Shown: positions 588 through 26,423 of the stretch, piece after piece
Layout of the letters: every line of letters begins with the position of its first letter
How positions within the stretch are numbered: the first letter of the stretch is position 1
Virus record (IMG/VR): IMGVR_UViG_3300042291_000997
Location: 1-26,423 of that record
Source: a virus
Direction: 5' to 3' (one strand)
Length of the DNA: 26,423 nt
Translations under genes and position numbers: made by a program
Notes under the pieces: generated by a model
Database searches by the model: none
Told to the model about the DNA's origin: nothing
Seen by the model: the letters and a program-made list of their open reading frames with translations, nothing else

Positions 588-1562
588 ATGAAAAGATCAC
601 AACTACGCGAAATTATCCGTGAAGCTATTAAAAATGAATTAGCAGAAAATCAACCTAAACCGGAGCAACCAAACACACCGGCACCTACCACCACACCTGA
701 ACCAGGTACTGAAGAAGAGGAGGAGAAAAAACGCCGTAAAATTGGTAGACCAGACGTTGAACCAAAACCGAAAGCGTTAAAGGAAGAAGAAATGCTAAAG
801 AAAATTGTAGATCGCTATAAATTAAAATCATCTGGAATGAATGAAGATTTAGATTTAGGACACGAAGATGATGAGCCACATATGCTTAGAGCTGATTTAT
901 ATCGTATTGCTAAATACGCTATTGAATTATATAAAATGCTTGAGCCATTTGATAAAATGGAAGGTGAAGTAGATCTTCCACAATGGTGGCAAGAAAAAAT
1001 CATCAAATCTAAATCAATGTTGGTTGCAGCTAAGCACTATCTTGATTTTGAATTGAAAGAACCATCTATTGATGCTTCATTAAATGGCGCAGCAATGAAT
1101 GAAGCTACTCCAGAACAAGAAAAATATAGACTTAAATCTGCTAAACCAACTCAATTTAAACAAGATATTGCAGCAGCTAAAAAAATGATTGATGCTGGAA
1201 AATCGGAAAAAGAAGTAGTGTCAAAATATAGTCAAGCAGTTTTTAATGCCGTGAATGCACAAAACATGGGTGAAGGTAAAAATAGAATATACTACCATGT
1301 ATTAGAAGATGGTGGTTATGGTAATATAGGATGGCAAGGATACTATAATACTGCAGAAGAAGCACAAAAACGAGCTGATAAATTATCTGATATGTTTCCT
1401 AACTCTAGTTTTTATGTTGAAGCTGGTAACAGTCCAAAAGAACCTGTTAATGTTACTGTTGAAGGTAAAAAGAGAGATATGAATAACGATAAAAAAATCG
1501 ATTCTGAAGATTATCTTTTAACAATTGATGCTGCTATTAAAAAATCAAAACTAAAAAAATAA
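588..1562 (+). CDS. Putative capsid-targeted protein with cleavable-type leader and C-terminal EF-hand-like loop
   Basis: A 324-residue protein of unknown function. Residues 1-20 form a basic amphipathic leader: LR at 6-7, IREAI at 10-14, and LAE at 18-20. Its spacing matches the leader of the protein at 3735. The (L/I)xE ending looks like a T4 prohead-protease site, so cleavage after E20 is plausible. Residues 21-65 are Pro/Glu/Lys-rich and probably disordered. Residues 230-285 form a compact region rich in Tyr and Gly (YYHVLEDGGYGNIGWQGYY). Residues 297-308 (D, N, D, I, D, D at positions 1, 3, 5, 8, 9 and 12 of the loop) match an EF-hand or dockerin-type calcium loop. The stop overlaps the next start by one base (TAATG), indicating translational coupling. 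An internal virion protein is the favoured role, but this is inference. Confidence 0.6.
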   Translation: MKRSQLREIIREAIKNELAENQPKPEQPNTPAPTTTPEPGTEEEEEKKRRKIGRPDVEPKPKALKEEEMLKKIVDRYKLKSSGMNEDLDLGHEDDEPHMLRADLYRIAKYAIELYKMLEPFDKMEGEVDLPQWWQEKIIKSKSMLVAAKHYLDFELKEPSIDASLNGAAMNEATPEQEKYRLKSAKPTQFKQDIAAAKKMIDAGKSEKEVVSKYSQAVFNAVNAQNMGEGKNRIYYHVLEDGGYGNIGWQGYYNTAEEAQKRADKLSDMFPNSSFYVEAGNSPKEPVNVTVEGKKRDMNNDKKIDSEDYLLTIDAAIKKSKLKK

Positions 1563-2575
1563 TGGCTAAATTATTAGAAGTAAAATACGAAGATATATTT
1601 TCACCTGAAACAATAGCTTCACTAAAAGGCAAATCAGGACAATCACTACGTGATATGTTAGGTAATAAAAACCTAATGAGCGCGTTAGGAGACACTCAAA
1701 AATTACTAGATAATGTAATTGAGGCTGAATCTGATTACCATATTGAATTACCTATGATTGCTGAGATCATGGCTAGAGAAGCATATCCTATTTTAGATTA
1801 TTCTAATATTAAGATTGATGCTAAGATAGTAGATAATCAAGCAGGATTAGAATTACCCTCTCCATCAGAAAATGAAGAACCAGTAGATGCTGCAGATGTA
1901 CCTATGGCTAGTAAACGCCGTATTATAAATGGTATTACTCAAGGAGCAGCTGTACGTGGTGCTTTTGCATTTTTATTATTTAAAGAACATTTAGATGATT
2001 TAAACCCAGCATTAGTAGAAAAATACAATGAAATGATGAAATTAGTATTTGGTATCTACGATGATGAAGATGCTATTGCTATGATGTTAGCTATGCTTGC
2101 TCAAGGGCAAAAACAAGGCGGCGGTTCATCAGAAATGACATACGATGTTGAAAATGAGCAGTTTGTTATTAAAGCAAGAGCGCTTTGTTTCCCAATGTTA
2201 TTACATGAAATCATTAAAGGATTATATGAAATCGTTGGTACAGAAGGCTTTGGTTTAGATAGTGAGAAAAATAAAGAAATCATTGATAAAGTAGATACAT
2301 TACAAAACGAACCAGAAGATTTTAGATATGGTAAGTTTATATATGATGCTATATCTAATCTATACAACGAAAGCGGTATAAATGATGCTCGTATTCGTGA
2401 AATATTCTTTACAGAAGTATATAAATTAGAGGATAATGAATTTTTCCCATTTATTGATAACGTCATTAATAATAAATTAACACCAGCTCAAAAGAAATGG
2501 GCAATCGATACAATGAAAGATATTGAATCTGATTTAGCTAAAGATGATACTGGATTGAAAGATTTGGGTGAGTAA
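1562..2575 (+). CDS. Conserved-looking hypothetical protein, mainly helical
   Basis: A 337-residue acidic soluble protein; I cannot assign a function. It has no signal peptide or clear membrane segment. Residues 115-190 contain a Gly/Ala-rich stretch (GITQGAAVRGAFAF) followed by long helices with a Met/Ala run (AIAMMLAMLAQGQ). The C-terminal third is rich in charged helices. It starts at an ATG overlapping the previous stop (TAATG), so it is translated as a pair with the leader-bearing protein at 588. That pairing suggests the two products act together, perhaps as virion or assembly proteins. No catalytic motif is visible. Confidence 0.6.
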   Translation: MAKLLEVKYEDIFSPETIASLKGKSGQSLRDMLGNKNLMSALGDTQKLLDNVIEAESDYHIELPMIAEIMAREAYPILDYSNIKIDAKIVDNQAGLELPSPSENEEPVDAADVPMASKRRIINGITQGAAVRGAFAFLLFKEHLDDLNPALVEKYNEMMKLVFGIYDDEDAIAMMLAMLAQGQKQGGGSSEMTYDVENEQFVIKARALCFPMLLHEIIKGLYEIVGTEGFGLDSEKNKEIIDKVDTLQNEPEDFRYGKFIYDAISNLYNESGINDARIREIFFTEVYKLEDNEFFPFIDNVINNKLTPAQKKWAIDTMKDIESDLAKDDTGLKDLGE

Positions 2576-2616
2576 AGAAAAGATATTAGATTCATAAAAA
2601 AGAATTAGATATCAAA

Positions 2617-2865
2617 ATGGGAAATACAAACAAAATCAAAACAGCAGACGGTACTATAGTATACTATATACACATAGATGGTACAAATAAAATGCATAAT
2701 TGGAATGGACCAGCTTATATACCACAAGGCAATATTAAGCTAGCAGAATATTATGTTTTTGGAATGAAACACAATCGTGAAGATTTTTTAAATATCAAGC
2801 GAGAAGCAAATGGATTACCTTGGTATAAAACGGCCATAGGGAAAACCGCAGGTGCAAGAGTATAA
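2617..2865 (+). CDS. Small hypothetical protein (82 aa)
   Basis: A small soluble protein of unknown function. The segment HNWNGPAYIPQGN followed by AEYYVFG resembles the 'DGPA ... YYxNG' repeat seen in many phage hypothetical proteins, in a single degenerate copy. It has no membrane segment or catalytic motif. It ends 6 bases before a hairpin terminator, so it is the last gene of the first transcription block. Confidence 0.55.
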   Translation: MGNTNKIKTADGTIVYYIHIDGTNKMHNWNGPAYIPQGNIKLAEYYVFGMKHNREDFLNIKREANGLPWYKTAIGKTAGARV

Positions 2866-2871
2866 AATAAG

Positions 2872-2894
2872 AGGGCTGTCAAGGCCCTTTTTTT
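2872..2894 (+). terminator. Rho-independent terminator
   Basis: AGGGC (2872-2876) pairs with GCCCT (2884-2888), extended by a T-G wobble pair, with a short loop and a run of seven T at 2888-2894. It lies between the stop at 2865 and the next start at 2905. Confidence 0.8.
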
Positions 2895-2904
2895 AATTTT
2901 AGTT

Positions 2905-3165
2905 ATGGCAAAAGAAGAAACCCTCCGTAAATTTACTAGAGTATACAAGCATAACGATGGTGTTATAGCTACTTGGACATATGATTTAGATAAAACAACT
3001 CATGGCCCTATAGAAGTTAATCTAGATTATCCTAAAGACTATAATTTTGAAGATGAAGTTAAAAAACGAATGGATCATCAAAATAAAATAGATAAAAAGT
3101 ACTTAAATCCAAATAATGGAAAGTACGTTGGATATGGCAGAGCAAAAGCATTAGGTTTAATTTAA
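2905..3165 (+). CDS. Small hypothetical protein (86 aa)
   Basis: A small charged protein with no recognised domain. The N-terminal half reads like a short beta-sheet (TRVYKHNDGVIATWTYDLD) and the C-terminal half is basic and Asn/Tyr/Gly-rich. It starts just after the terminator at 2872-2894, so it would need its own promoter, yet no ATATTTAT box lies between them; read-through or another promoter type is likely. It is followed 15 bases later by the P-loop protein. Confidence 0.5.
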   Translation: MAKEETLRKFTRVYKHNDGVIATWTYDLDKTTHGPIEVNLDYPKDYNFEDEVKKRMDHQNKIDKKYLNPNNGKYVGYGRAKALGLI

Positions 3166-3180
3166 AATAAAAATACAGTT

Positions 3181-3702
3181 ATGAAAATAGGATTATGCGG
3201 AACAGTTAGTGTAGGGAAAACTACATTAATTAAAGCACTAGCAGAATTAGAACAATTTAAAGATTATCATGTTGCTACTGAGCGTAGTAAGTATTTAAGG
3301 GATCAAGGAATATCATTAAATGATGATTCTACAGTTAAAGGACAATTTGTATTTGCTGCTGAACGTAGTTTAGAGCTAATGCGTGATGACTTATTAACAG
3401 ATAGAACAATTTATGATGTATCAGCATTTACAATTAGTGCTAAATCAATTAGTTGGAATGATAAAGCATTATTAGTTGAAGCGTTTTTAACGTTACGTCA
3501 TGAGTATGATTTAATTGTCTACATATCGCCTGAAGGCGTTGATATTGAAGATAATGGTGTACGTACAACAGACGCTGAATATCGTGGTAAGATTGATAAA
3601 GTGTTAGTTGATATGCTAAAACAATTTCCACCTAAAAAATTAATTACTGTTAAAGGTACTACAGAAGAACGTATCGAGGCTATCATTTCCCAATTGAATT
3701 AA
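3181..3702 (+). CDS. P-loop NTPase, AAA_28 / NadR-like kinase type
   Basis: A 173-residue protein with a clear Walker A at residues 7-15 (GTVSVGKTT) directly after the first beta-strand (MKIGLC). The layout is that of small NadR-like or AAA_28 kinases: P-loop, a glutamate and arginine after strand 2 (ATERSKYL), an aspartate-bearing strand (TDRTIYDVSAF), and a late hydrophobic strand (YDLIVYISP) followed by an Arg-containing lid-like segment. Family members phosphorylate nucleotides, nucleosides or related cofactors; the substrate here cannot be read from the sequence. A nucleotide-supply role is plausible but unproven. The length is normal for a stand-alone kinase domain. Confidence 0.7.
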   Translation: MKIGLCGTVSVGKTTLIKALAELEQFKDYHVATERSKYLRDQGISLNDDSTVKGQFVFAAERSLELMRDDLLTDRTIYDVSAFTISAKSISWNDKALLVEAFLTLRHEYDLIVYISPEGVDIEDNGVRTTDAEYRGKIDKVLVDMLKQFPPKKLITVKGTTEERIEAIISQLN

Positions 3703-3710
3703 TATTTATG
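3702..3710 (+). promoter_or_regulatory. ATATTTATG late-promoter-like box
   Basis: Copy 2 of the box. It overlaps the ATG at 3708, which argues that this ATG is not the used start. The ATG at 3735 lies 24 bases downstream, a spacing seen at several other copies. Confidence 0.5.
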
Positions 3711-3734
3711 GACACAAACATTAACGGAAATAAA

Positions 3735-4652
3735 ATGCAATCTAAACACTTACGTAGTTTAATACGTGAAGCCATAACTGAAGTATTAAGTGAAGCTACA
3801 CAAGAAACCACTATAGATTATAAGGACCCAAATACCCCGGATAAAATATTAAATATTGATCCAGCAGACACATCTACTATCAATAAATTAAAAACAAATT
3901 CTAAGGTAAGTAGTGTAACTGTAGGGACTAAAAAAATTAAAGAACTAGCACGTAAAGCTAAAGGATATATTCTAGTAGACCCAGAATTCGATACTACAGA
4001 ATACGTTAAACGCATTAGTGGAGTATCATTAGCTGATATTATTAATTTCTTTAAAGAAAACCCAGGTGCTGAAAAAACAGAAGTACAAGCTCAATTTGGG
4101 TTTGTTAGACCACAAATAGCTAATGCTATAGTAAATTCATTAGTGGATACTGGTATTTTAGCTAAAAATGAGATACCAGGTGAGGAAGGCGAACCAGCAG
4201 CAGAACCTAACTATAATATTGGTGCTGAGGATTTCTTCGTTGGAAGTCGATTAACTAATATTCCGACTCGTACTGTAGGTACTGATGAGGATGAAATGGA
4301 AGATATGGAACCAGTACTAGAACCAGAAATGGCAGCTCCAGTACAATCAAACATATCGGATGATGATTATGCGGCTTGGATGGATTATTCTAAATATGCT
4401 GAGCGTTTAGGGCGCACTAAAAGTGCGATTACCCAATATAAAAAACAAAGACAGAGCGGAGACGATCTTTCTAGCGAATCCAATGAGCTCGGGCGTTTAA
4501 TCGCCTTAAAAACGTCTTTAGAGCAACGTATTGCTAATATAGTTAACACTAATGAATACGTTAAAACTAGAGCAGAACAAGGCGAAGTAGAAAGCGAAGA
4601 CGAAATTAACGAAACCGTATTAAAACGCCTAAAAAAATTAGCAAATATCTAA
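3735..4652 (+). CDS. Putative capsid-targeted protein: N-terminal leader plus scaffold-like C-terminal peptide
   Basis: A 305-residue protein of unknown function. An ATG at 3708 would add nine residues, but I choose 3735. From there LR falls at residues 6-7, IREAI at 10-14 and LSE at 18-20, matching the leader of the protein at 588, and the 3708 ATG lies inside a promoter-like box. The LSE/A junction resembles a T4-type prohead-protease site. Residues 95-145 look like a winged-helix segment (SLADIINFFKENPG ... VRPQIANAIVNSLVDTGIL). A Glu/Met-rich linker follows, then a charged coiled-coil region. The last residues (VLKRLKKLANI) closely match the scaffold C-terminus (RMQKLANIIK). Both ends therefore point to the prohead interior. 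The role is inference. Confidence 0.6.
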   Translation: MQSKHLRSLIREAITEVLSEATQETTIDYKDPNTPDKILNIDPADTSTINKLKTNSKVSSVTVGTKKIKELARKAKGYILVDPEFDTTEYVKRISGVSLADIINFFKENPGAEKTEVQAQFGFVRPQIANAIVNSLVDTGILAKNEIPGEEGEPAAEPNYNIGAEDFFVGSRLTNIPTRTVGTDEDEMEDMEPVLEPEMAAPVQSNISDDDYAAWMDYSKYAERLGRTKSAITQYKKQRQSGDDLSSESNELGRLIALKTSLEQRIANIVNTNEYVKTRAEQGEVESEDEINETVLKRLKKLANI

Positions 4653-4653
4653 T

Positions 4654-5316
4654 ATGAATAAAATTGTTACATTTATAGTTGGCCTTATCATAGGAGCATT
4701 ACTATTATTTGGTTATACTGAATATTATGATTCACCGTTCAGCAGTGATTTTAAACAAAAAACCGATAGTTTAAATAAGGTTATTGATTCACTACACAAC
4801 AACATCGTTAAAGAAGACAGTGTTATTGATGTGTTAGTTAAAAAAGATTCAATTTTAGTTATTAAAGTAGAATATTATAAATCAGAACGCGACGTTGCTA
4901 AGGCTAAAGCTAAGGATTTAGCTAGTAAATTTAAAACAGCAAACGACGATGAATTAGCTAAATTCTATATAGAACGCTACGCACCAGAAAGTCCATTAGC
5001 AATATCTGTACCTAAAGAAGCATTAATAAATGCTGCACAAGATTTAATATTATGTGATGGTACTAAAACAGAATTAGCATTAGCGGATAGCGCTATTATA
5101 ACATTAAATGACAGGATTACTGGTAAAGATAGTGTTATTAGCTCTCAAAATAAAAAAGAAGCAAACTATAACAGCATTATATTAAATCAAGATTTAAAAT
5201 ATGGTTTATTAGAGAATGAATCTAAAAGTCAAATCAATAAATTAAAGAAGAAAATATTAATGTGGAAAACCACAACGGGATTAGTTGTGTTAGGTTCAAT
5301 TTTATTAATACTGTAA
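4654..5316 (+). CDS. Two-membrane-segment coiled-coil protein (spanin-like candidate)
   Basis: A 220-residue protein with a strongly hydrophobic segment at residues 4-21 (IVTFIVGLIIGALLLFGY) and a second at about 205-220 (TTGLVVLGSILLIL). Between them are about 180 mostly helical residues with heptad-like spacing, rich in Asp, Lys and Ser. The first segment has no lipobox cysteine. Anchoring at both ends with a coiled coil between recalls spanins or other envelope-lysis proteins, but classical Rz has only the N-terminal anchor and u-spanins begin as lipoproteins, so the match is imperfect. It starts one base after the previous stop. It could equally be a virion or host-membrane protein. Confidence 0.55.
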   Translation: MNKIVTFIVGLIIGALLLFGYTEYYDSPFSSDFKQKTDSLNKVIDSLHNNIVKEDSVIDVLVKKDSILVIKVEYYKSERDVAKAKAKDLASKFKTANDDELAKFYIERYAPESPLAISVPKEALINAAQDLILCDGTKTELALADSAIITLNDRITGKDSVISSQNKKEANYNSIILNQDLKYGLLENESKSQINKLKKKILMWKTTTGLVVLGSILLIL

Positions 5317-5325
5317 ATATTTATA
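5317..5325 (+). promoter_or_regulatory. ATATTTATA late-promoter-like box, 3 bases before ATG
   Basis: Copy 3 of the box, overlapping by none and starting just after the stop of the membrane protein. The sequence ATATTTATACAC runs straight into the ATG at 5329, which leaves almost no room for an untranslated leader. Confidence 0.65.
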
Positions 5326-5328
5326 CAC

Positions 5329-5868
5329 ATGAAAAAACAATTAAACGAAATCAAAAGAATGCAGCTATTAGCTGGGTTGTTAAAAGAAAATACTGATGGA
5401 TTAGATTTTGATAAATTAGATTTTGTTAATGAGCCGTTTGGTCTTGAAGATAATATTAGCTTTAGATGGAAAAGCCAACCAGCAAACCCAAAAAGCATAT
5501 TAACAGATACAGAAAGTGGTGAAGAATTTACTAAAGAAGAATTCTGGGAAACTGATATTAAGGGAAGTGGTTCAGGGAATATGCCGCCTGACTATGGTAG
5601 TCAAAATCCAGATGGTACTTGGACTTTTGATTTTGATGAAGTTGAAATTAGTGGATTTGTTGAGGGAGAAGATTTTGAATTTGAGGAAGATGAATTAGAA
5701 GACCACAATTATGATGCTGCGTTCTTATTTAATTTTTTTCAAAGCAAAGGTAATCGTTTTATGGATGAAATGCGTGAATATGATGCTGAAGAATTAATGA
5801 ATTCTTACCCAGGCTTATCAGAAGAAGAAGCAGAAGAATTAGAAGATATGTTACAAAATTTAATATAA
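5329..5868 (+). CDS. Acidic protein with RMQ-LA leader peptide
   Basis: A 179-residue, strongly acidic protein of unknown function. The first 20 residues are basic and helical, contain RMQLLAGLLKE and end LKE at 18-20, the same place where the leaders of the proteins at 588 and 3735 end with LxE. The remainder is rich in Asp and Glu (EDFEFEEDELED), with Glu runs near the C-terminus (SEEEAEELEDML). A cleaved leader plus an acidic body recalls T4 internal core proteins such as gp67, but I see no sequence match to any T4 protein. It has its own promoter-like box and ends before a hairpin terminator, so it can be expressed as a single-gene unit. Confidence 0.6.
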   Translation: MKKQLNEIKRMQLLAGLLKENTDGLDFDKLDFVNEPFGLEDNISFRWKSQPANPKSILTDTESGEEFTKEEFWETDIKGSGSGNMPPDYGSQNPDGTWTFDFDEVEISGFVEGEDFEFEEDELEDHNYDAAFLFNFFQSKGNRFMDEMREYDAEELMNSYPGLSEEEAEELEDMLQNLI

Positions 5869-5913: not shown

Positions 5914-5922
5914 TTGTCTTAT

Positions 5923-9503: not shown

Positions 9504-10358
9504 ATGAGTAAAATAACCCACAGTAAATACAAAAATACGGGCATATTATTCGAACTATTAGTTCGCCAAATTGCTAGCGATACGGTGTCTGGCAAAGATT
9601 CAGCAGCTATTGATTTAGTTAAAAAATATTTTTCTAAAACTGAATTAAATAAAGAATATAAAACATACCAAACGTTAATAAACACTAAGTTGTTGACTGA
9701 AGGTAAAGCAGAATCATTGATTAACGCGACATTAGAAATGTCATCGCGTTTAAACAGAACGGCGTTAAAGCGAGAAAAATATAACCTTATCAAAGAAATT
9801 CGTACACATTACAACATAGAAGAATTCTTTAAATCTAAAATCAACCATTATACACAGTACGCTGCGATATATAATTTGATTGAAGCTAACAATTCATTAG
9901 AATTTATTAATCCTAATCAAATAGTTGATAATAAAATCACATTATTAGAACACATTACTCGTAATGAAATTAATAAAGAAGAAGTAGCAGATCGTTTGAT
10001 GGAAGAATATTCAGATATGGATAAAGGTACTCGTTTATTAGCATATCGTGTATTGTTAGAAAGATTCAATTCTAAATATTCAAATTTAGATAGTAAACAA
10101 AAATCAGTATTAAAAGAATACATCAACAATATTTCAAATACTGTTAAATTAAGAGAATTTGTAAACGAACAATTCGATTTCTTACGTACTAGTTTAACTG
10201 AACTAAATACATCTGTAACAGATAAAACAATCCAAATCAAAATTAACGAAGTAATCAATTTAATCCAGCCTTTAGGTAAAAACCAAAATGTAAAGGATGA
10301 AAACATTATTTCATTATTACAATATCATCAACTAGTAAACGAATTAAAAAATGGATAA
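9504..10358 (+). CDS. Conserved-looking hypothetical protein downstream of portal
   Basis: A 284-residue, almost entirely helical protein without signal or membrane segments. The N-terminus (KYKNTGILFELLVRQI) looks like the conserved start of a protein found beside the portal in distant T4-like phages. That is recollection, not a computed match. In T4 the portal-protease interval holds the prohead core genes 67 and 68, so a core or assembly role is possible. Its last 8 bases overlap the start of the next gene, suggesting coupled translation. Confidence 0.65.
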   Translation: MSKITHSKYKNTGILFELLVRQIASDTVSGKDSAAIDLVKKYFSKTELNKEYKTYQTLINTKLLTEGKAESLINATLEMSSRLNRTALKREKYNLIKEIRTHYNIEEFFKSKINHYTQYAAIYNLIEANNSLEFINPNQIVDNKITLLEHITRNEINKEEVADRLMEEYSDMDKGTRLLAYRVLLERFNSKYSNLDSKQKSVLKEYINNISNTVKLREFVNEQFDFLRTSLTELNTSVTDKTIQIKINEVINLIQPLGKNQNVKDENIISLLQYHQLVNELKNG

Positions 10359-11226
10359 TATAAAAAAATACGTTACAAAAATTATTCGTGAAGCTATGAG
10401 TGCTGATAGTCCTATAAAGGAAGTTAGTAGCTATAAAGGTATTGATGGATATTTTGATACCGCTCTTCAGTGGATTTGGTTATTTGGTGGTAAAGAATTA
10501 CTAAAAAATAAACTAGAAATCTATAGCCCCTCTAATGAATTTAGAACATTCAAAAAAGCTATGGAAACTGGTAAAATTACCATTCAAGATTTAGATAAAG
10601 TTACAAAAGGAGAACACGGACAAGTAGATAATATAGCTTTTTCACAAACAGCAGTTTGGAAACAAGATTTAAAACCATATTTAGATAATTATAACCAAGA
10701 AAAATTTAATAATTTAAATATTGATTTAGAAGAAGAATCAGCTACAGGCGCTATTGGCGTTGGTGCTGGTCCAATCAATACTCCATATGCATTTGCTAAA
10801 AAAGGACAAAAAACTAATAAAGCAACAGCAACAGCTATGAAACAAGGATTTAAAAAAGCACCTGGTATGCCTAAAAATTCTAAAATGTTTGATTATAAAG
10901 AAATGTGGCCAGGTAAAAAATCATCTATGAACGAATCATTAGTAGACATTATTAAGGAAGAATTACTTAATGAAGTAACATATAGCAAATTTAAAAATGA
11001 TGTTAAGTTACGTACTAAAAACGAACAACTTCATAAAGCTATTAAAGAAGTAAAACGCAAATTAGCTGAAATTGATCTTATTGTTGAATACACATCACGT
11101 ATGAAACAAGAGCTAAGTGAAGGCGAAGAAGGAATTAAATACTGGAAGAATACCCAAAAGAATATGGCAACTATTTCAGAAATGGTAACTAATTTAAACG
11201 ATAAAATTAAATCTTTACAAGAATAA
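10351..11226 (+). CDS. Putative prohead internal protein with N-terminal and internal IIxE tags
   Basis: A 291-residue protein of unknown function. The N-terminus contains KIIREAM (10-16) and IKE at 22-24, resembling the LR/IREAI leaders of the genes at 588 and 3735. A second similar element, SLVDIIKEELLNE, lies at residues 196-208, directly after M193 and a probable linker. Between them is a Gly/Ala/Lys-rich stretch with GAGPINTPYAFAKK (about 136-150), a motif I associate with internal proteins of distant T4-like phages. The C-terminal 80 residues are a charged coiled coil. Two tag-like elements in one chain suggest processing into two pieces. The stop overlaps the next ATG (TAATG). Confidence 0.6.
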   Translation: MDNIKKYVTKIIREAMSADSPIKEVSSYKGIDGYFDTALQWIWLFGGKELLKNKLEIYSPSNEFRTFKKAMETGKITIQDLDKVTKGEHGQVDNIAFSQTAVWKQDLKPYLDNYNQEKFNNLNIDLEEESATGAIGVGAGPINTPYAFAKKGQKTNKATATAMKQGFKKAPGMPKNSKMFDYKEMWPGKKSSMNESLVDIIKEELLNEVTYSKFKNDVKLRTKNEQLHKAIKEVKRKLAEIDLIVEYTSRMKQELSEGEEGIKYWKNTQKNMATISEMVTNLNDKIKSLQE

Positions 11227-13258: not shown

Positions 13259-13873
13259 ATGGATAAGCAATTATTAGTTGATCATACCCCATTCCACATT
13301 GCTAAGCTTCAGCCAATAACTGAAGGTAAAGACAGTAATGATGGTAGAATGCGTGTAAAAGGTAAACTACAGGAAGCAGATACTAAAAACGGTAATAATC
13401 GTGTATATCCTTTAGAAACATTAAGAAAACAAGTCGATCAATATATTAAAGGCCCAGTTGCTTCTAAAACATCTACTGGTGAATTAGATCACCCTGAATC
13501 ATCTATTATTAACTTAAGTAACGTTTCACATTTGATCCATAAAATATGGTGGGAAGATAATAACGTTATGGGTGAATTAATTATATTAAATACACCTTCA
13601 GGTAAAATTGCACAAGAAATTATTATAGCTGGTATTCCATTAGGTATATCATCACGCGGTATGGGTAGTGTTAGACAAATTGGTGAAACAGTTGAAGTAC
13701 AAGACGATTTTGAATTACTTTGCTGGGATTTAGTATCGGTACCATCAACACCTAACGCTTATATGTCATTAGCTGAAAGCAAGCAATATAATTTTACAGA
13801 CAAATACGATAAAGTTAATGGTTTAATCACAGAAATCATATGTACTCAAACAGGAGTATGTGCTTTGTGCTAA
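13259..13873 (+). CDS. gp21: Prohead protease (gp21-like, serine peptidase family S78 type)
   Basis: Cuts scaffold, capsid and internal proteins during head maturation. It has 204 residues, close to T4 gp21 (212). It shows the two hallmark active-site segments of this fold: the histidine in GELDHPE (H78) and the serine in GISSRGMGSV (S131 or S132). FELLCWDLVSVPSTPNA follows, also typical of the family. The N-terminal stretch has PITEGK (ITE22/G23), a candidate self-cleavage site, and GLITEI near the C-terminus is another. The end is unusual for its three cysteines (ICTQTGVCALC). It lies just before the scaffold and capsid genes, as in T4. Confidence 0.92.
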   Translation: MDKQLLVDHTPFHIAKLQPITEGKDSNDGRMRVKGKLQEADTKNGNNRVYPLETLRKQVDQYIKGPVASKTSTGELDHPESSIINLSNVSHLIHKIWWEDNNVMGELIILNTPSGKIAQEIIIAGIPLGISSRGMGSVRQIGETVEVQDDFELLCWDLVSVPSTPNAYMSLAESKQYNFTDKYDKVNGLITEIICTQTGVCALC

Positions 13874-14078: not shown

Positions 14079-15065
14079 ATGTCAAACAAAAATTTATTTA
14101 AAGAGGCTATCGCTGACGCTAAAGCAGTTCGCGAAGCAGCGTTATTAAACGCAAAAAATGCCCTTGAAGAAGCTTTGACCCCAAGTATTCAAAACATGTT
14201 AGCTGCGAAGTTAAATGAAATGTCAGATGATTACGGAATGGAAGAAGAAATGATAGGTATGGACAGAGAAGAAGCACCAATGGAAGAAGATTTCGATCTA
14301 GCTTCTATCTTGGCTGAATTAGAACTTGAAGAAGAAACTGAATTAGCAGAAGCTAAGAAAGAAAAAACTAAAGACGAAGAAGGCGAAGAAGGTGAAGAAG
14401 AAGAAGGCGAAGAAGAAGAAAAAGGTGAAGAAGAAGGCGAAGAAGAAGTAGAAGTTAAAGATATGTCTATCGAAGATCTTAAAGCACTAATCAAAGACGT
14501 AGTGTCTCAAGAATTAGAAGCTGAACCAGCAGCAATGCCAGCTGGTGAAGAAGAAATGGATATGGATATGAACATGGGCGACATGGGTAACATGGAAGCT
14601 GATGAAGAAGAAATTAACTTAGAAGAACTATTAGCTGAATTAGATTCATTAGATGAAGAAGCAGAATTAGAAGAAGCTAAGAAAATGAAAAACAAAGATA
14701 AAGAAGCTAAGGAAGAATTAGAAGAAGCTATCAATGTTATCAAATCACTTCGTACTCAATTAAGCGAAACTAATTTATTAAATGCTAAATTACTTTACGT
14801 AAATAAAATCTTCAAAGCTAAAAACTTATCTGAAGCACAAAAATTAAACGTTATTGCTTCATTTGATAAAGCAACTACCGCTAAAGAAGCTAAAATGGTT
14901 TACGAGTCATTAAATACAACTTTAACTAACACTGTTAAAAGAACAGCTATTAAAGAGTCATTAGGATTCGCATCTAAAGCAACTGGTATTGCTCCAAAGA
15001 AACAAATCGTTGAGTCAAACGACGTAATTAGTCGTATGCAAAAATTAGCAAACATTATTAAGTAA
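14079..15065 (+). CDS. gp22: Prohead scaffolding core protein (gp22-like)
   Basis: The internal scaffold around which the capsid shell forms, later destroyed by the protease. It has 328 residues (T4 gp22 has 269). Assignment rests on position between protease and capsid genes, extreme acidity and coiled-coil character rather than a strong motif. The N-terminus (LFKEAIADAKAVREAALL) is helical and T4-gp22-like. Residues 75-200 are low-complexity Glu runs broken by Gly, with a Met/Asp-rich patch. The C-terminal 120 residues form a Lys/Leu/Ala helical domain ending VISRMQKLANIIK. Many (L/I)xE sites are present. AAGGA 12 bases before the ATG is one of the few Shine-Dalgarno-like sequences in the window, fitting high expression. 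Confidence 0.85.
   Translation: MSNKNLFKEAIADAKAVREAALLNAKNALEEALTPSIQNMLAAKLNEMSDDYGMEEEMIGMDREEAPMEEDFDLASILAELELEEETELAEAKKEKTKDEEGEEGEEEEGEEEEKGEEEGEEEVEVKDMSIEDLKALIKDVVSQELEAEPAAMPAGEEEMDMDMNMGDMGNMEADEEEINLEELLAELDSLDEEAELEEAKKMKNKDKEAKEELEEAINVIKSLRTQLSETNLLNAKLLYVNKIFKAKNLSEAQKLNVIASFDKATTAKEAKMVYESLNTTLTNTVKRTAIKESLGFASKATGIAPKKQIVESNDVISRMQKLANIIK
14377..14460 (+). repeat. GAA-rich low-complexity tract
   Basis: A run of GAA codons interrupted by GGC/GGT, encoding EEGEEE-like units in the scaffold. The opposite strand is open here only because of this composition. Confidence 0.8.
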
Positions 15066-15088: not shown

Positions 15089-16702
15089 ATGGACATCAAA
15101 CAATTATTAGAATCATCTAATCAATTCAAGTCTATTCAAGACGACGCACAGCGTTTAACGTCTAAATGGACCAAATCAGGCTTATTAGAAGGCCTATCTA
15201 ACATCACAGATCGTAACACAATGGCGATGTTGTTAGAAAACCAAGCAAAACAATTAGTAGTAGAAACTTCACAAACAGGTGGACAAGCTGGTGGTGCAGG
15301 TGCATATTCAGGCGAGAGCTGGAATGGTGTAGCTTTACCATTAGTACGTAGAGTATTTGGTGAAATTGCAGCGAAAGAATTCGTTTCAGTTCAACCAATG
15401 AATTTACCTTCAGGTTTAGTATTTTACTTAGACTTCAAATACGGAACAGGTGTTAGACCGTTCTCATCTGGAGATTCTTTGTATGGTGCTAGTACAACCA
15501 ACAACGTAACTGATATCACTTCTCAATCACTTTATGGTGCTGGAAGATTCGGTTACTCAATGAACCAATTCTCAGCATCTATCGGTGCAGTTACTGCTTC
15601 AGCAACTACTTGGGCAGATTTCAACAACGATGCTGATTACTCTTCATCATTCAACCAATACAAGAAAATTTTAGTAGGTATTCCTGCAACTGCAGATACC
15701 AATGCTGTTAGATCATTTGTATTTACATCTGGTTCAATCGTTGCTTCTGATATTTTACAAGCGTTTACTACACTTGATGCAACTAACACAACTGCTTCAT
15801 TCTTCGTAACTGCTTCTAAAGTAACTAACGTTACTGGTAGTGTAGCAGGAACAGTTCAATTGTTCTTCAGTGTAGCTCCAGCTACTACTTCACGTGGTGA
15901 CTTCGAAGATGCTTCAGGCGCAGGTTATCCTAACGCTCAAAGTTCTACTGCAATCGCTATTCCAGAAATTAACGTTCAGTTAAAATCTGAAGCAATTGTT
16001 GCTAAAACTCGTAAGTTAAAAGCACAATGGACTCCTGAATTCGCTCAAGACTTAAACGCTTACCATAGTGTTGATGCTGAGGCTGAATTAACAGGTATCT
16101 TGTCACAGTACATTTCAATGGAAATTGATCTTGAATTGTTAGACATGTTGATCGAAAACGCTTACACAGTTGATTACTGGTCAGCAGTAAACAACCAAGC
16201 TACAGGCGCTTCAGGTGTTGTAAATAGTAACTTAGGTTTCTACAATACTCAAGGCGGTTGGTTCCAAACATTAGGTACAAAATTACAAAAAGTATCTAAC
16301 AAAATTCACCAATTAACAATGCGTGGTGGTGCTAACTTCTTAGTTACATCTCCTACAGTTGCTACTATCTTAGAATCAATCCCAGGATTCGCTTCAGATG
16401 GTGATGGTGAGAAAATGGAATACAATTTCGGTATCCAAAAAGTAGGTTCATTAAACAGCCGTTACAAGGTTTACAAAAACCCTTACATGACTGAGAACGT
16501 TATCTTAATGGGTTACAAAGGTGCTCAATTCTTGGAGTGTGGTGCAGTATTTGCTCCATATGTTCCTTTAATCATGACTCCATTGTTATACGATCCAGCT
16601 ACCTTCACTCCACGTAAAGGTTTAATGACTCGTTACGCTAAGAAAATGATTCGTCCAGACTACTACGGAAAATTATATATTAGTGGTTTAAACACTATCT
16701 AA
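15089..16702 (+). CDS. gp23: Major capsid protein (gp23-like)
   Basis: The main shell protein, 537 residues (T4 gp23 has 521). Segments that match gp23: LVRRVFGEIAAKEFVSVQPMN (about 85-105), KTRKLKAQWTPEFAQDLNAYH with DAEAELTGILSQ and EIDLELLDMLI in the middle, and GGANFLVTSPTVATIL toward the end. An N-terminal pro-region ends at a likely protease site after E59 (QLVVE/T), near the T4 site after residue 65, and is followed by a Gly/Ser/Ala-rich stretch. Residues 165-285 hold a Ser/Thr-rich insertion typical of an outward-facing domain. The leader is A-rich without Shine-Dalgarno. Downstream are a small hairpin and a strong terminator. Confidence 0.96.
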   Translation: MDIKQLLESSNQFKSIQDDAQRLTSKWTKSGLLEGLSNITDRNTMAMLLENQAKQLVVETSQTGGQAGGAGAYSGESWNGVALPLVRRVFGEIAAKEFVSVQPMNLPSGLVFYLDFKYGTGVRPFSSGDSLYGASTTNNVTDITSQSLYGAGRFGYSMNQFSASIGAVTASATTWADFNNDADYSSSFNQYKKILVGIPATADTNAVRSFVFTSGSIVASDILQAFTTLDATNTTASFFVTASKVTNVTGSVAGTVQLFFSVAPATTSRGDFEDASGAGYPNAQSSTAIAIPEINVQLKSEAIVAKTRKLKAQWTPEFAQDLNAYHSVDAEAELTGILSQYISMEIDLELLDMLIENAYTVDYWSAVNNQATGASGVVNSNLGFYNTQGGWFQTLGTKLQKVSNKIHQLTMRGGANFLVTSPTVATILESIPGFASDGDGEKMEYNFGIQKVGSLNSRYKVYKNPYMTENVILMGYKGAQFLECGAVFAPYVPLIMTPLLYDPATFTPRKGLMTRYAKKMIRPDYYGKLYISGLNTI

Positions 16703-20162: not shown

Positions 20163-20543
20163 ATGATTAAATTAATAGACATATTAAACGAAGATAAGAA
20201 ATATCCATTATACGATAAGGAAGGTAAATTGACTGGATTCGCTAAACCACAAGATGAAGACCCAGAATCACCTGAATTTGAAAAAGGATATAAAAGTATC
20301 AAAACATACACTGAACCTGATACAGGAGCTTCAGTAACTGAATATGAACGTCTTCCTAAATTTGACGATATTAGAAGAAAAGTAGTAGGATTTAGAAGAG
20401 AATTTCAACCATTCAAGTATTCATCTAATGCTGATGTAGCTAAAGTAGCTAAAGATTTAAATACAAAATTAACTCAAGCAGCACAATTAGTATTTGCATT
20501 ATCTAGAATGATTGAATTACAGCAAAAAACGAATGAAAAATAA
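20163..20543 (+). CDS. Small protein with LNE leader (126 aa)
   Basis: A 126-residue protein of unknown function. ATG 20100 is possible in frame but would overlap the gp14-like gene by 52 bases and read across the promoter-like box, so I choose 20163. The N-terminus IKLIDILNEDK has an (L/I)xE ending after a short hydrophobic helix, close to the length of the T4 capsid-targeting peptide. The middle is Pro/Glu/Asp-rich and the last 55 residues form an amphipathic helix (DLNTKLTQAAQLVFALSRM). The stop overlaps the next ATG (TAATG). Confidence 0.6.
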   Translation: MIKLIDILNEDKKYPLYDKEGKLTGFAKPQDEDPESPEFEKGYKSIKTYTEPDTGASVTEYERLPKFDDIRRKVVGFRREFQPFKYSSNADVAKVAKDLNTKLTQAAQLVFALSRMIELQQKTNEK

Positions 20544-22136: not shown

Positions 22137-24206
22137 ATGGCTCAAATAATAAAAAATAGAAGAGGTAGCATAGGTAATGCAAAAGATATAACCACGCAAA
22201 ACGGTGAAATAGTCGTTGCCTCGGGTTCAATCGGTGACTTATCTGGTCCCTTTTTATTAGTTGGTTCTCCAACGCCATCTGATAACGGCTTATCTGGTGT
22301 TTACAAACCAGCTTCTAAAATATACACTGGAAATTCTGTTCCTACAATTCTTTCTGCATCTTACGGTAACGTATTAGATGGTACTCCATTCTATGCTGTA
22401 GGAAGTAATACATTATATATATTAAGTTCTGCAGGCAATACTGTAATGAACTTAGCTGGTAACATTAATGGTAATACATTAGTGAACATTACAGCATCAG
22501 GCTCATTTAGTGGATCATTTCAAGGCGATGGTAGTGGATTAACAAATATATCTGCTTCTAGTATCGTTGGGTTAAATTTATCTAGAATATCAACAGGATC
22601 AGTAACAGCATCAGTTGATGTTGGTGCTACTACGTTTCAAGTAGCTAGTGGTAGTTCTAATTTCTTTAAAATTGCTAATAGCGGTATAATATCAATTACT
22701 GGTTCATTAGGAGTAACAAACGGCATTACAGGATCATTATTAGGTACTGCTTCATTTGCAGATAGAGCTACTACATCATCATATGCTTTATCATCATCAT
22801 ATTCAGACACATTAGGTGCTAGCCTAACATCATCAGCAAATGATCAAGTAAGATTATTAGCTAGTAATGGAGCTACATTATCAACTATAACAGTAAACAA
22901 TGTTACTTCAGCATCATACGCTTTAAGTGCATCATATGCTTCTTTCGCTACAACATCATCGTATGTAGCTACATCATCATATGTTCCTAATTTACAAGAA
23001 GTAAGTAATAAAGGTGCTACTACAACAAATGCACTTACAATGTCAGGTGCCTTCATTAATGGTACAACAGACATTAATGGTGACTTAAACGTTAAAGGTA
23101 CTATAACATATATTTCATCATCAACATTACAAATTGGTGATAATATAATTGAAATCAACGTTAATAAAACCGCTGGAAACAGTGGTATGATTGTATATGA
23201 TACATCAGCACCATTTACTGCATCATTATTATGGGATGCTTCATTAGATAGATGGATTGCTGGGCCATATACAAGTGAATCAATTATTATACTAGCCAGC
23301 GATACAAGCTCAATGTCAGTGAATTTTGCTAGAACAGCATCTTATTCAACTACATTAGGTGCTAGTTTAACATCGTCTGCAAACAACCAAGTACGCCTAT
23401 TAGCTAGCGACGGTAGTATTTTATCTACATTAACTGTAAATAATGTTACTTCTGCATCGTATGCTTTAAGTGCATCATACTCTAATACAGCAACTAGTGC
23501 ATCATATTCATTAGTAGCCACTTCAGCATCATACTCAGCTGTTGCTACTAGCGCTTCATATTCTGCTACAGCAACCAGTGCTTCATACTCGTTAGTAGCT
23601 ACATCAGCATCATATTCAGCAGTTGCTACAAGCGCTTCATACTCAGCTGTTGCTACTAGTGCATCTTATGCTGCTACAGCATCATCAGCCGATATATTCT
23701 TAGTTAGAAATGGTCTTACCGTTAATAGTGGTGCTGTAATAACAGGATCATTAAGAGTAACTAACGGTATTACTGGTAGTTTATTAGGTAATGTATTTGG
23801 AACAGCATCGTGGGCTAATAACGCTACAACAGCATCATACTCTTTACAAGCCACTTCAGCATCATACGCTTTACAGGCTACTACAGCATCATACTCTTTA
23901 CAAGCCACTTCAGCATCATATGCATCTCAAGCTACAACGGCATCATACGCTTTACAGGCTACTACAGCATCATATGCTTTAACAGCATCGTATGTTAATA
24001 CATTATTCCAAAATCTAAGTGTAACAGGATCAATATCTACTACAAATGGTATATTTGATAATTCATCAGGACCAGGTTTCCATTTTATGTTTATGTCTTC
24101 GTCTAACAAGATATCTTATATTAGCCCAGCAACACCAGGAGACTTAATTCAATGGAACGGTACAACAATGATAGCATCAAATCTTATAGACGGAGGTACA
24201 TTCTAA
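22137..24206 (+). CDS. Tail fibre-type protein with ASY repeats
   Basis: A 689-residue protein, almost without Cys and rich in Ser, Ala, Thr and Tyr. The N-terminus (RRGSIGNAKDITTQNGEIVVASG) resembles the attachment module of tail fibres and of the next gene. Then come GSFSGSFQGDGSGLTNI-type turns and SASYALSASYA motifs, a duplicated ~45-residue module (TLGASLTSSAN ... VNNVTSASYALSASYA at about 226 and 407), an IGDNIIEINVNK ... SLLWDASLDRWIAGP module, and two arrays of 9-residue repeats at residues 452-514 and 563-616. The C-terminal 70 residues have no repeats. Such proteins form trimeric shafts; receptor binding is possible but unproven. Confidence 0.8.
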   Translation: MAQIIKNRRGSIGNAKDITTQNGEIVVASGSIGDLSGPFLLVGSPTPSDNGLSGVYKPASKIYTGNSVPTILSASYGNVLDGTPFYAVGSNTLYILSSAGNTVMNLAGNINGNTLVNITASGSFSGSFQGDGSGLTNISASSIVGLNLSRISTGSVTASVDVGATTFQVASGSSNFFKIANSGIISITGSLGVTNGITGSLLGTASFADRATTSSYALSSSYSDTLGASLTSSANDQVRLLASNGATLSTITVNNVTSASYALSASYASFATTSSYVATSSYVPNLQEVSNKGATTTNALTMSGAFINGTTDINGDLNVKGTITYISSSTLQIGDNIIEINVNKTAGNSGMIVYDTSAPFTASLLWDASLDRWIAGPYTSESIIILASDTSSMSVNFARTASYSTTLGASLTSSANNQVRLLASDGSILSTLTVNNVTSASYALSASYSNTATSASYSLVATSASYSAVATSASYSATATSASYSLVATSASYSAVATSASYSAVATSASYAATASSADIFLVRNGLTVNSGAVITGSLRVTNGITGSLLGNVFGTASWANNATTASYSLQATSASYALQATTASYSLQATSASYASQATTASYALQATTASYALTASYVNTLFQNLSVTGSISTTNGIFDNSSGPGFHFMFMSSSNKISYISPATPGDLIQWNGTTMIASNLIDGGTF
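23490..23678 (+). repeat. 7 x 27-bp coding repeats (ATSASYSxV type)
   Basis: Seven in-frame units of nine codons encode ATSASYSLV, ATSASYSAV, ATSASYSAT and close variants. Codon usage varies between units, so the protein is more repetitive than the DNA. Confidence 0.9.
23823..23984 (+). repeat. 6 x 27-bp coding repeats (ATTASYSLQ type)
   Basis: Six in-frame nine-codon units alternate ATTASYxLQ and ATSASYxxQ. They differ from the first array by Gln in place of Val at the ninth position. Confidence 0.9.
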
Positions 24207-24228
24207 CGTAATAATTCAATTTTCTTCC

Positions 24229-24237
24229 ATATTTATA
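24229..24237 (+). promoter_or_regulatory. ATATTTATA late-promoter-like box for second fibre gene
   Basis: Copy 13, between the two fibre genes; its 35-base gap to the ATG (24273) is the longest in the set. Confidence 0.6.
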
Positions 24238-24241
24238 TAAG

Positions 24242-24253
24242 ACCTATATAGGT
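24242..24253 (+). other. 12-bp perfect palindrome ACCTATATAGGT
   Basis: A perfect dyad between the promoter-like box and the fibre ATG. It could be a protein-binding site or a very tight RNA hairpin; it may also be chance. Confidence 0.4.
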
Positions 24254-24272
24254 TCCTTATAATCCCATAGAT

Positions 24273-26423
24273 ATGGCCCAACAAGTAAAACTACGCAGAA
24301 GTTCTGTAGCGGGTAATAAACCTACAACCGCACAATTAGAATTAGGTGAATTAGCCATTAACACAAACGATGGTAAATTATATTTCGAGAAATCATCATC
24401 ACTTGGTGAATCAGTACAAGAACTAATTGTAACTGATGCTTGGAATACAGGATCAGTTAATATATCAGGGTCAATTACTGTATCTGGTTCTATCAATGCA
24501 ACTTCATTTACAGGATCATTATTAGGAACATCATCATACGCTAGACAAGCATTAAGCGCTTCATACGCTCTAGTATCAACTAGTGCATCATACGCTACAC
24601 AAGCCCTTAGTTCATCTTATACTAACAATGCTACAACAGCATCGTATGCCTTAACATCAACAAGTGCATCATTTGCTACAACAGCATCGTATGCTAATGT
24701 TGCTACAAGTGCATCATACTCAGCTACATCATCGTATGCTAACAATTTTACAGTTGCTGGAACATTAACAGCGCAAACACTTATAGTACAAACTGTAACA
24801 TCAAGTATAATTTATGCTTCAGGATCTAATCAATTAGGTGATGCTACAAACGATACTCAACTATTAATAGGAACTACTAAAATAACTGGTAGTTTACAAG
24901 TAACAGGCAGTAGTAATCTATCAGGATCATTAAATGTATCTAATGGCATTACAGGTTCACTACTAGGAACCGCGTCATACGCTTCAAATGCCTTAAGTGC
25001 TTCATACTCTTTAACATCAACATCAGCGTCATATGCATTAAGTGCTTCATATGCTACAACATCAACATCAGCATCATATGCCGCTACTTCAACAAGTGCT
25101 TCATATGCTCTAGTATCAACATCAGCATCATACGCTGCTACATCAACTAGTGCTTCTTATGCTAACAATGCTACAACAGCATCGTATGCCTTAACATCAA
25201 CAAGTGCATCATATGCCACAACATCTTCATTTGCTCAAAATGCACAAGATATTTTAATATATGTTAAAAATGTAACTGGTGCTCAAATAAATAAAGGAAA
25301 AGTAGTAAGAATATCAGGAGCAACAGGTGATAATGCTTTAATCTCAACTGCTTCATATGAAAGTGATGGAGTTTCTGCTAACACTTTAGGTATTACTTAT
25401 CAAGATATCCCTAATGATAATTTTGGATATGTAATAACTGAAGGTACATTAATAGGAATAAACACAAATGCATTCTCAGCAGGACAATTACTTTATTTAG
25501 GAGCAACTGGATCTATAATAGGAACAGCTCCAGTAGCACCATTACACGCTGTAAGATTAGGACAGGTATTAAGAGTCCAAATTAATAATGGTTCAATATA
25601 TGTTCGTATTGATAATGGATACGAATTAGGAGAATTACACGATGTAGTAGACACTACAACTACTTCATCATATGGAGATTTATTAGTAAAAAGTGGAAGT
25701 GTTTGGATTAATTCTAAACAATTAACTGGTTCATACTCTATAACTGGTAGTTGGTCAGCAACTTCATTCACAGGATCATTATTAGGAACAGCGTCATACG
25801 CTACACAAGCATTAAGTGCTTCTTATGCTAGTATTGCTGCAAGCGCTTCATACATCCCTACCCTACAACAAGTAACAAGCCAAGGAAATACTACTACTAC
25901 AGCTATAACATCATCTGGGTTATATGTTTCTGGTTCAGCAACTATAACAGGAAACTTAAATGTATTAGGTACTGCATCATTTGCTAGTGTAACATCATCA
26001 GTTGTTATAGTAGGAGATAGTACAATTATATTAAATACAGATGCACCCGCTGTTCGATTTGGGGGTATTGAAGTAATAGATTCAGGATCATTTGGAAATA
26101 ATTCTACAGGTTCATTGCTTTGGGACTCTGAAAATAATCATTGGATATATTCAAACCCATCAGGATCATCATACAGTGGTGGTATGTTAATTTCAGGTCC
26201 TAGAAACACAGGTAGTATAGGAGATGAACAAGGTACTACCCTTAATGCTATATTAAAAGGACAAGGAGGAGACCATTTAACGTCTTCTGCTATTATTGAA
26301 AACGGTACTTCAACTAACTTCTACAGCAACGCTGCTATTATAACATCAGCAGGATCAGTTACAGCAACCTCATTTACAGGATCACTTTCAGGTTCATTAC
26401 TAGGAACATCATCATACGCTTCA
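24273..26423 (+). CDS. Large tail fibre-type protein with ASY repeats (3' end outside window)
   Basis: The frame is open from ATG 24273 to the last base, giving 717 residues so far. The N-terminus (KLRRSSVAGNKPTTAQLELGELAINTNDGKLYFEK) is the common 'LxxGELAxNTxDGKLYF' module of phage tail fibre and baseplate proteins. Repeated ATSFTGSLLGTASYA blocks and SASYA arrays follow (about 24529-24743 and 24979-25234). A globular module starting IYVKNVTGAQINKGKVVRISGATGD and ending RIDNGYELGELHDV (about 25255-25650) is typical of fibre proteins. A later SLLWDSENNHWIYSNP module parallels one in the preceding fibre. Two long direct repeats occur inside. Function is likely host attachment, by family. Confidence 0.85.
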   Translation, partial: MAQQVKLRRSSVAGNKPTTAQLELGELAINTNDGKLYFEKSSSLGESVQELIVTDAWNTGSVNISGSITVSGSINATSFTGSLLGTSSYARQALSASYALVSTSASYATQALSSSYTNNATTASYALTSTSASFATTASYANVATSASYSATSSYANNFTVAGTLTAQTLIVQTVTSSIIYASGSNQLGDATNDTQLLIGTTKITGSLQVTGSSNLSGSLNVSNGITGSLLGTASYASNALSASYSLTSTSASYALSASYATTSTSASYAATSTSASYALVSTSASYAATSTSASYANNATTASYALTSTSASYATTSSFAQNAQDILIYVKNVTGAQINKGKVVRISGATGDNALISTASYESDGVSANTLGITYQDIPNDNFGYVITEGTLIGINTNAFSAGQLLYLGATGSIIGTAPVAPLHAVRLGQVLRVQINNGSIYVRIDNGYELGELHDVVDTTTTSSYGDLLVKSGSVWINSKQLTGSYSITGSWSATSFTGSLLGTASYATQALSASYASIAASASYIPTLQQVTSQGNTTTTAITSSGLYVSGSATITGNLNVLGTASFASVTSSVVIVGDSTIILNTDAPAVRFGGIEVIDSGSFGNNSTGSLLWDSENNHWIYSNPSGSSYSGGMLISGPRNTGSIGDEQGTTLNAILKGQGGDHLTSSAIIENGTSTNFYSNAAIITSAGSVTATSFTGSLSGSLLGTSSYAS
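24622..24672 (+). repeat. 51-bp direct repeat, copy 1
   Basis: Identical over 51 bases to 25162-25212, 540 bases (180 codons) downstream in the same frame of the same gene. Confidence 0.9.
25162..25212 (+). repeat. 51-bp direct repeat, copy 2
   Basis: Exact copy of 24622-24672. Recombination between the two would remove 180 codons in frame. Confidence 0.9.

Follow-up and report, generated by a model that had tools for sequence, protein, structure and literature searches.

The capsid targeting sequence (CTS) of the internal proteins IPI, IPII and IPIII of phage T4, taken together with the propeptides of Alt and gp24, is the closest known counterpart of the peptides analyzed here, namely short leaders that open several proteins of the IMG/VR virus record IMGVR_UViG_3300042291_000997, a 26.4-kb sequence (26,423 nucleotides, hereafter the window, meaning the whole stretch) with a T4-like head module. 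In T4, N-terminal targeting propeptides of 10–19 residues are cut after (L/I)xE (PMC9026906); that of gp24 is 10 residues long, 65 residues are removed from gp23, and the CTS is reported to be absent from other core proteins, their localisation mechanism being called mysterious (PMC9958956). In the giant phage SPN3US, N-terminal propeptides are cut C-terminal to glutamate by a gp21 homologue, two of them being 20–24 residues long and others 111–254 (PMC10052503). Here, we describe at least four interchangeable classes of leader in the window and its relatives, one of which has the sequence of the C-terminal tail of the scaffold, and we argue that these leaders are very probably prohead-targeting tags, clipped off after assembly, with that one class mimicking the scaffold tail.

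Leaders of the window

The initial annotation had described 20-residue leaders on three proteins, and this description held when checked residue by residue. The class 1 leader MKRSQLREIIREAIKNELAE↓N (588–647, plus strand; here and below an arrow marks the junction or predicted cut) forms residues 1–20 of the 324-residue protein 588–1562 and is followed by a proline-rich linker, and the class 1 leader MQSKHLRSLIREAITEVLSE↓A (3735–3794, plus strand) opens the 305-residue protein 3735–4652; both have LR at residues 6–7, IREAI at 10–14 and L18-x-E20. The class 2 leader MKKQLNEIKRMQLLAGLLKE↓N (5329–5388, plus strand) of the 179-residue protein 5329–5868 has RMQLLAGLLKE at residues 10–20 and also ends in LxE at residue 20. 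Against a hidden Markov model (HMM) of the other class 1 leaders, the 588 leader scored 24.2 bits, the best of 1850 shuffles reaching 7.3, and the 5329 leader scored 17.9 bits against the class 2 HMM, the best of 1850 shuffles reaching 3.8. The pattern of the three leaders is more than chance, as judged from the conservation of the 3735 leader in its family, the scrambled control for RMQQLAGI and the class 2 junction counts given below. Short relatives of the 588 protein retain both the leader and the proline-rich linker, for example MKVQDLKKIIREIVDKVLAE↓NAPAPSKP.

Searching the window for further leaders yielded two that had gone unnoticed. The first is a class 1-like (IREA-type) leader, MDNIKKYVTKIIREAMSADSPIKE↓V (10351–10422, plus strand), of the 291-residue core-like protein 10351–11226, encoded between portal and protease; its homologue in locus L009 reads MNVSLLKRIIKEELVNSLKE↓ASSYKGIEG where the window has SPIKE↓VSSYKGIDG, so that the LxE junctions align. 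The second is a class 4 leader, MIKLIDILNE↓D (20163–20192, plus strand), of the 126-residue protein 20163–20543. Equally overlooked was a leader-like tail that forms the C-terminal end of the 3735 protein and recurs on the scaffold (14079–15065). The leader-bearing proteins of the window gave no Pfam match above cut-off and weak matches only among the PHROGs, the mature part of the 5329 protein had no homologue among the relatives searched, and tblastn with the bare 21-residue leaders of classes 1 and 2, which are too short for such a search, returned no matches in phages or plasmids.

Leader classes, modularity and junction

Across T4-like relatives, at least four leader classes were found, with the patterns IREAI (class 1), RMQxLAG (class 2), FDLKKFLxEN (class 3) and MIKLxDILxE (class 4), each ending at (L/I)xE. 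The single 20-residue code initially proposed is thus to be widened: the leaders themselves stand, as members of at least four interchangeable classes, of which class 4 has a length of only 10 residues. Class 3, MENFDLKKFLVENKLTTNSKLLNE↓, occurs in at least 120 loci and on four genes of Flavobacterium phage immuto. Class 4 was found on 72 proteins in tag-bearing loci, and a control of 321 kb drawn from random viral contigs yielded none. Every contig of at least 97 kb carries 5–16 tagged genes.

The proteins behind these leaders are diverse. By blastp, and among the matches listed, the mature parts behind RMQQLAGI (64 proteins) fall into 51 families and those behind FDLKKFL (97 proteins) into 49, and the 281 proteins of classes 1–3 fall into 163 families. 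Conversely, a single protein can be found behind several leaders. A protein of about 200 residues carries a class 1 (L296), a class 2 (L168, L214, L231) or a class 3 (L364, L354, L279) leader, its mature parts being 43–64% identical over about 170 residues with homology that begins right behind the LxE; a second family likewise occurs with classes 1, 2 and 3, and class 4 swaps with each of these three in other families (for instance L246 versus L030, 88% identity over 113 residues). Since differing sequences interchange before the same protein and share the same kind of end site, the simplest reading is that the leader classes have one job.

The junction was quantified with search patterns that excluded the counted glutamate, on sequences that were deduplicated and are still phylogenetically non-independent. 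Among the matches listed, (L/I)xE with its glutamate at motif positions 10–16, most often 11, is present in 63 of the 68 distinct class 2 leaders, as against 6.7% of the 7-residue windows inside the same proteins, and an LxE junction is present in 87 of 101 class 3 leaders, as against 16.6% of the 18-residue windows inside the same proteins. For class 4, the glutamate stands at its fixed position in 71 of 97 starts, but in only 33 of 269 matches from the interior of proteins. The junctions of classes 2 and 3 mostly have N, K, T or S at P2 and frequently have S, N, A, G or E at P1'. The four leader types do not resemble Sec or lipoprotein signal peptides, being charged throughout and devoid of an uninterrupted hydrophobic core.

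The class 2 leader and the scaffold tail

A DNA-level scan of IMG/VR for RMQQLAGI, which forms the core of the 5329-type leader, found it at 120 loci or more, versus 2 loci for a scrambled 8-mer made from its codons. The sites among the matches listed number 128, of which 76 are N-terminal (ATG within 16 codons), 45 C-terminal and 7 elsewhere; 2 of these 45 C-terminal sites lie in chance 14-residue frames, and all 43 of the others end a scaffold open reading frame (ORF) with the capsid gene directly after it. The window has the same arrangement: its acidic, gp22-like scaffold (14079–15065, plus strand), recognized by position and composition directly upstream of the major capsid gene, ends in IVE↓SNDVISRMQKLANIIK (15015–15062, plus strand), which is the motif of the class 2 leader. 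This scaffold is homologous to gp067 of immuto (tblastn 4e-29) and to the ORF that precedes the capsid gene of Microcystis phage Mel-JY01.

We then read the scaffold tail from the ORF upstream of every capsid gene at hand (84 loci, 51 distinct tails). The motif R(M/W/I)(Q/K)xLA(G/N)(I/L) is present in 50 of the 51 distinct tails, and in 20 of 21 among the loci that were not retrieved via the motif; the tails end in RMQKLANIIK in the window, RWQKLAGIIK in immuto, RMKKLAGIVK in Mel-JY01 and LERIKRLAGL in Rhodothermus phage RM378, and the only one without the motif is that of L362 (ending in NRFKKLVNYNKKK). T4 gp22, which ends in VSVYAKVASRF, has no such tail motif. By eye, it is the start of the T4 scaffold, MLKEQLIAEA, that resembles the T4 CTS MKTYQEFIAE↓A (N-termini of gp22 and IPIII in NC_000866, L370).

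The motif was also met outside these two settings. Two large proteins (L215, 914 residues; L178, 798 residues) have it at both ends. In L132 and L241, within a frame containing DEIKRMQQLAGIKEI, a class 2 tagged protein is fused in frame to another protein, the tag thus being internal, and the fusion partner looks like the end of a relative of the window protein 1562–2575 (KDDTGLEDLD-EIKRMQQLAGIKEI). Some further matches were tried and set aside. The pairing of scaffold and leader variants (RWQ versus RMQ) gave too few cases to count, namely two RWQ leaders, each from a genome whose scaffold is also RWQ. As mimics of core proteins, classes 1 and 3 were rejected, only the leaders themselves beating shuffled controls and the likeness of class 1 to the 10351 family being suggestive at most, and class 3 as a mimic of the capsid-protein N-terminus was plausible by eye and unsupported by HMM.

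Protease and capsid-protein cut site

As initially proposed, the window encodes a gp21-like prohead protease (13259–13873, plus strand), which belongs to the S77 family by its match to Pfam PF03420 (E 1.8e-28; 99.8 bits for a curated cut-off of 27) and also matches PHROG 207 (E 1.2e-51). PF03420 was found in 24 of the 29 leader-bearing contigs of at least 50 kb, including all those of at least 79 kb, but in none of the 11 random viral contigs (36–112 kb) that served as controls. Since class 2 contigs were partly selected via the scaffold, the cleaner figure is that for contigs retrieved by class 3 alone, 10 of 11.

The major capsid protein (15089–16702) has a predicted N-terminal propeptide (15089–15265, plus strand) whose putative cut, LVVE59↓T, aligns with the T4 gp23 cut FLTE65↓A. 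All 68 capsid proteins with a residue in this alignment column have the glutamate, P3 being V, I or L and P1' mostly A, T, S or Q, a pattern that supports a hydrophobic-x-E specificity of the protease in these phages.

A family tagged at both ends

The 3735 protein belongs to a family of 51 members, obtained via terminase relatives. In the alignment of all 51, mean identity is 50% over residues 1–20, drops to 20% over residues 21–40 and 26% over residues 41–60, then rises again, and E20 is retained in 46 of the 47 members having that column. Some shorter leaders of the family end in IxE or LxE at residue 16 (VISE↓A, VILE↓T). Behind similar leaders stand unrelated segments (beginning AEISPQEK, ETFAGIA, QATIDVS, ITIISPT or GATEDAA), and it follows from this conserved leader with unrelated sequence after it that the leader is one unit and the downstream part another. 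The frame is open from an in-frame ATG at 3708, nine codons upstream, so that the leader may be 29 and not 20 residues long; a comparable short extension is seen upstream in many relatives, and the conserved part begins at 3735.

At its other end, the 3735 protein carries a scaffold-like tail, INE↓TVLKRLKKLANI in the window (4614–4649, plus strand). The family as a whole ends in (L/I)DE↓WTKGRMQYYAGIKK, with Ala303 and Ile305 invariant in 34 aligned homologues, and this tail, at 59.5% mean identity, is the best-conserved stretch of the family. AlphaFold2 predicted a leader helix at residues 3–21, a low-confidence break at 20–26, a small domain with helix-turn-helix-like content at 77–146, then a long stretch of low confidence and, at 209–302, a helical region, in a model of low global confidence (predicted local distance difference test, pLDDT, 68; predicted template modelling score, pTM, 0.30) that gave no match at E <= 0.001 in a PDB fold search.

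Candidate cargo

Most of the tagged proteins tested had no known domain. Among those that did, four class 4 proteins (L180, L217, L321, L334) exceed the Pfam cut-off as zeta-toxin-type kinases, and one further class 4 protein matches a SET domain. Because an ADP-ribosyltransferase and an anti-restriction protein are packaged and injected by T4 (PMC9026906, PMC9958956), effector-like cargo of this type would fit, and the zeta-toxin-like kinases are candidate injected enzymes.

Other tagged proteins have segments reminiscent of export signals. An internal lipoprotein-signal-like segment was seen in 6 of 281 tagged proteins, as compared with 10 of 4211 ORFs (L301, L333, L167, L075, L098 and L013; for example KGLLTVAMASAILASCGTAG and GLKDKIMAGVVCTILATGMVSCTKED), in some cases directly after an xE↓G site, and prohead cleavage could expose such segments. 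Two class 3 tagged proteins, L340:735–2009 and L302:2949–3611, have a signal-peptide-like stretch, KGLLKGAVLATLLATPNIAQAQK in L340 and a similar one in L302, and L340 also has an OmpA-like domain below threshold (E 0.0097).

Remaining features of the window

By capsid-protein identity, the nearest isolated relatives of the window are immuto (60%), Mel-JY01 (48%) and RM378 (38%). Besides the genes already described, the head module comprises a terminase at 5914 and a portal at 7571. The protein 4654–5316 looks like a membrane-anchored coiled-coil protein; it had 79 matches among the loci searched and no match above cut-off in a family search, and is possibly a spanin-like or other envelope protein. 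Long ORFs of fibre-like character, in which TSASYA(L/T) is repeated many times, lie at 22137–26423.

Discussion

On the basis of tag modularity, class exchange, the LxE junction, the co-occurrence of S77 proteases, the gp23-like cut site and the identity of one class with the scaffold tail, the best-supported reading remains the one put forward in the initial annotation, a prohead-import tag ending at a gp21-type site. According to this model, a head-bound protein would carry a short helical N-terminal peptide and would dock through it either on the internal core or on the shell's inner face. Once the shell is complete, the S77 (gp21-like) protease would digest the scaffold and cut each tag after (L/I)xE, and the freed mature proteins would remain in the head with the DNA, from where they may be delivered into the next host. 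Since the class 2 tag is the scaffold's own C-terminal tail, it probably shares the tail's partner, which would most likely be the major capsid protein that lines the shell, or else another scaffold subunit. Taking this one step further, we find it reasonably likely that the heads of a large, mostly uncultured T4-like group are loaded with many swappable effectors by means of a removable copy of the scaffold tail or one of three equivalent tags, placed at either terminus.

Several points weigh against this interpretation. We sought published virion proteomics for immuto, Mel-JY01 and the group and found none, so that presence in the virion and cleavage are, like the docking partner, things that we infer. 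When classes 1 and 3 were compared by HMM with core proteins, none of those tested scored above shuffled controls, and class 1 matched the N-terminus of the 10351 family weakly, with 5 of 22 above 3 bits compared with 0.7% of shuffled sequences. Acidic phage proteins commonly contain motifs as short as (L/I)xE, the co-occurrence with S77 proteases partly reflects the T4-like nature of the contigs, and the class 2 set was in part retrieved via the scaffold itself.

The alternative that survives best, and that we nonetheless regard as unlikely, is that the tagged proteins are minor parts of the core or scaffold, like T4 gp67 and gp68, that are digested in maturation rather than delivered, the leader then being a core-assembly helix and LxE a degradation site. 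The 3735 family, which is conserved near the terminase gene in relatives and combines a long helical region with a scaffold-like tail, and the 10351 family, which sits between portal and protease as gp67 and gp68 do in T4, would suit such a role, and several tagged proteins are acidic and rich in LxE sites. However, the tagged proteins are for the most part small and variable and occur sporadically (51 families for 64 class 2 proteins), and some have enzyme-like domains, so that a role in assembly as a conserved part is unlikely for each of them. Core parts and cargo may also travel under one shared address, in which case both readings would apply together.

It is much less probable that the leaders are amphipathic helices serving membrane association, chaperonin recruitment or oligomerisation, on proteins that stay outside the head. 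AlphaFold2 indeed predicts a lone helix for the class 1 leader, and the functions of T4 propeptides mentioned in the consulted part of PMC10052503 include chaperonin recruitment alongside prohead targeting; but four unrelated sequence types interchange here with a protease-type site at the junction, the genomes carry an S77 protease, and one leader type is the scaffold tail. Finally, the idea that the shared 5' ends are recent DNA copies, in which a start region (ribosome site and first codons) was gained by recombination and the peptide has no function, would account for the ready recombination of tagged genes, with one leader before unrelated genes and different leaders before one gene, but is hardly credible given that leader conservation ends at LxE, that the motif also stands at scaffold C-termini, where there is no start region, and that the same residue is encoded by different codons in 29 of 66 comparisons between class 2 leaders of genome G002 and in 14 of 51 between class 3 leaders of immuto, which indicates that the peptide is kept while the DNA drifts.

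If the leaders are prohead-targeting tags, a tag that equals the scaffold tail offers a concrete and testable answer to how cargo is chosen in this group. The tags would also constitute a sequence signature of head-packed proteins, by which candidate injected proteins may be read from genomes without proteomics; the loci fetched here contain about 350 such tagged candidates, including the kinase-like and SET-domain proteins. Moreover, removable tags at either terminus would be of practical interest for loading proteins into phage heads.

With regard to known systems, herpesviruses provide a parallel for admission through a scaffold tail: their protease and scaffold share a C-terminal capsid-binding tail that admits the protein to the procapsid and is later cut off. 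In that case, the sharing results from the overlap of the two proteins within a single gene, whereas here the motif is found on unrelated genes and is usually N-terminal. The giant phages phiKZ and SPN3US resemble the present group in having N-terminal head propeptides and a gp21-related protease; the SPN3US motif is A-x-E, and the part of PMC10052503 consulted describes neither a short tag common to many unrelated proteins nor one copied from the scaffold tail. In the open-access literature on head targeting, subscription papers lying outside the search, we found neither multiple tag classes nor scaffold-tail mimicry described.

The T4 CTS and the present leaders have in common an N-terminal position, a short length (about 10–19 residues in T4), an (L/I)xE end, attachment to different mature proteins and an encoded S77 protease. 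The suggestion that the tag is of a type unlike that of T4 holds for classes 1–3, which are dissimilar to the T4 CTS, and not for class 4, whose MIKLIDILNE↓, by eye, matches the T4 gp24 propeptide MAKINELLRE↓ in length and form and resembles the Alt N-terminus MELITELFDE; none of the four leader patterns matched within 59 kb of T4 that include the genes for internal proteins and the head as well as the greater part of alt. In T4, it may be the N-terminus of the scaffold that is mimicked by cargo, where the present group mimics the C-terminus. Unlike the T4 CTS, the tags of this group come in at least four interchangeable classes, one of which is the scaffold's C-terminal tail and can be sited at either end of the protein.

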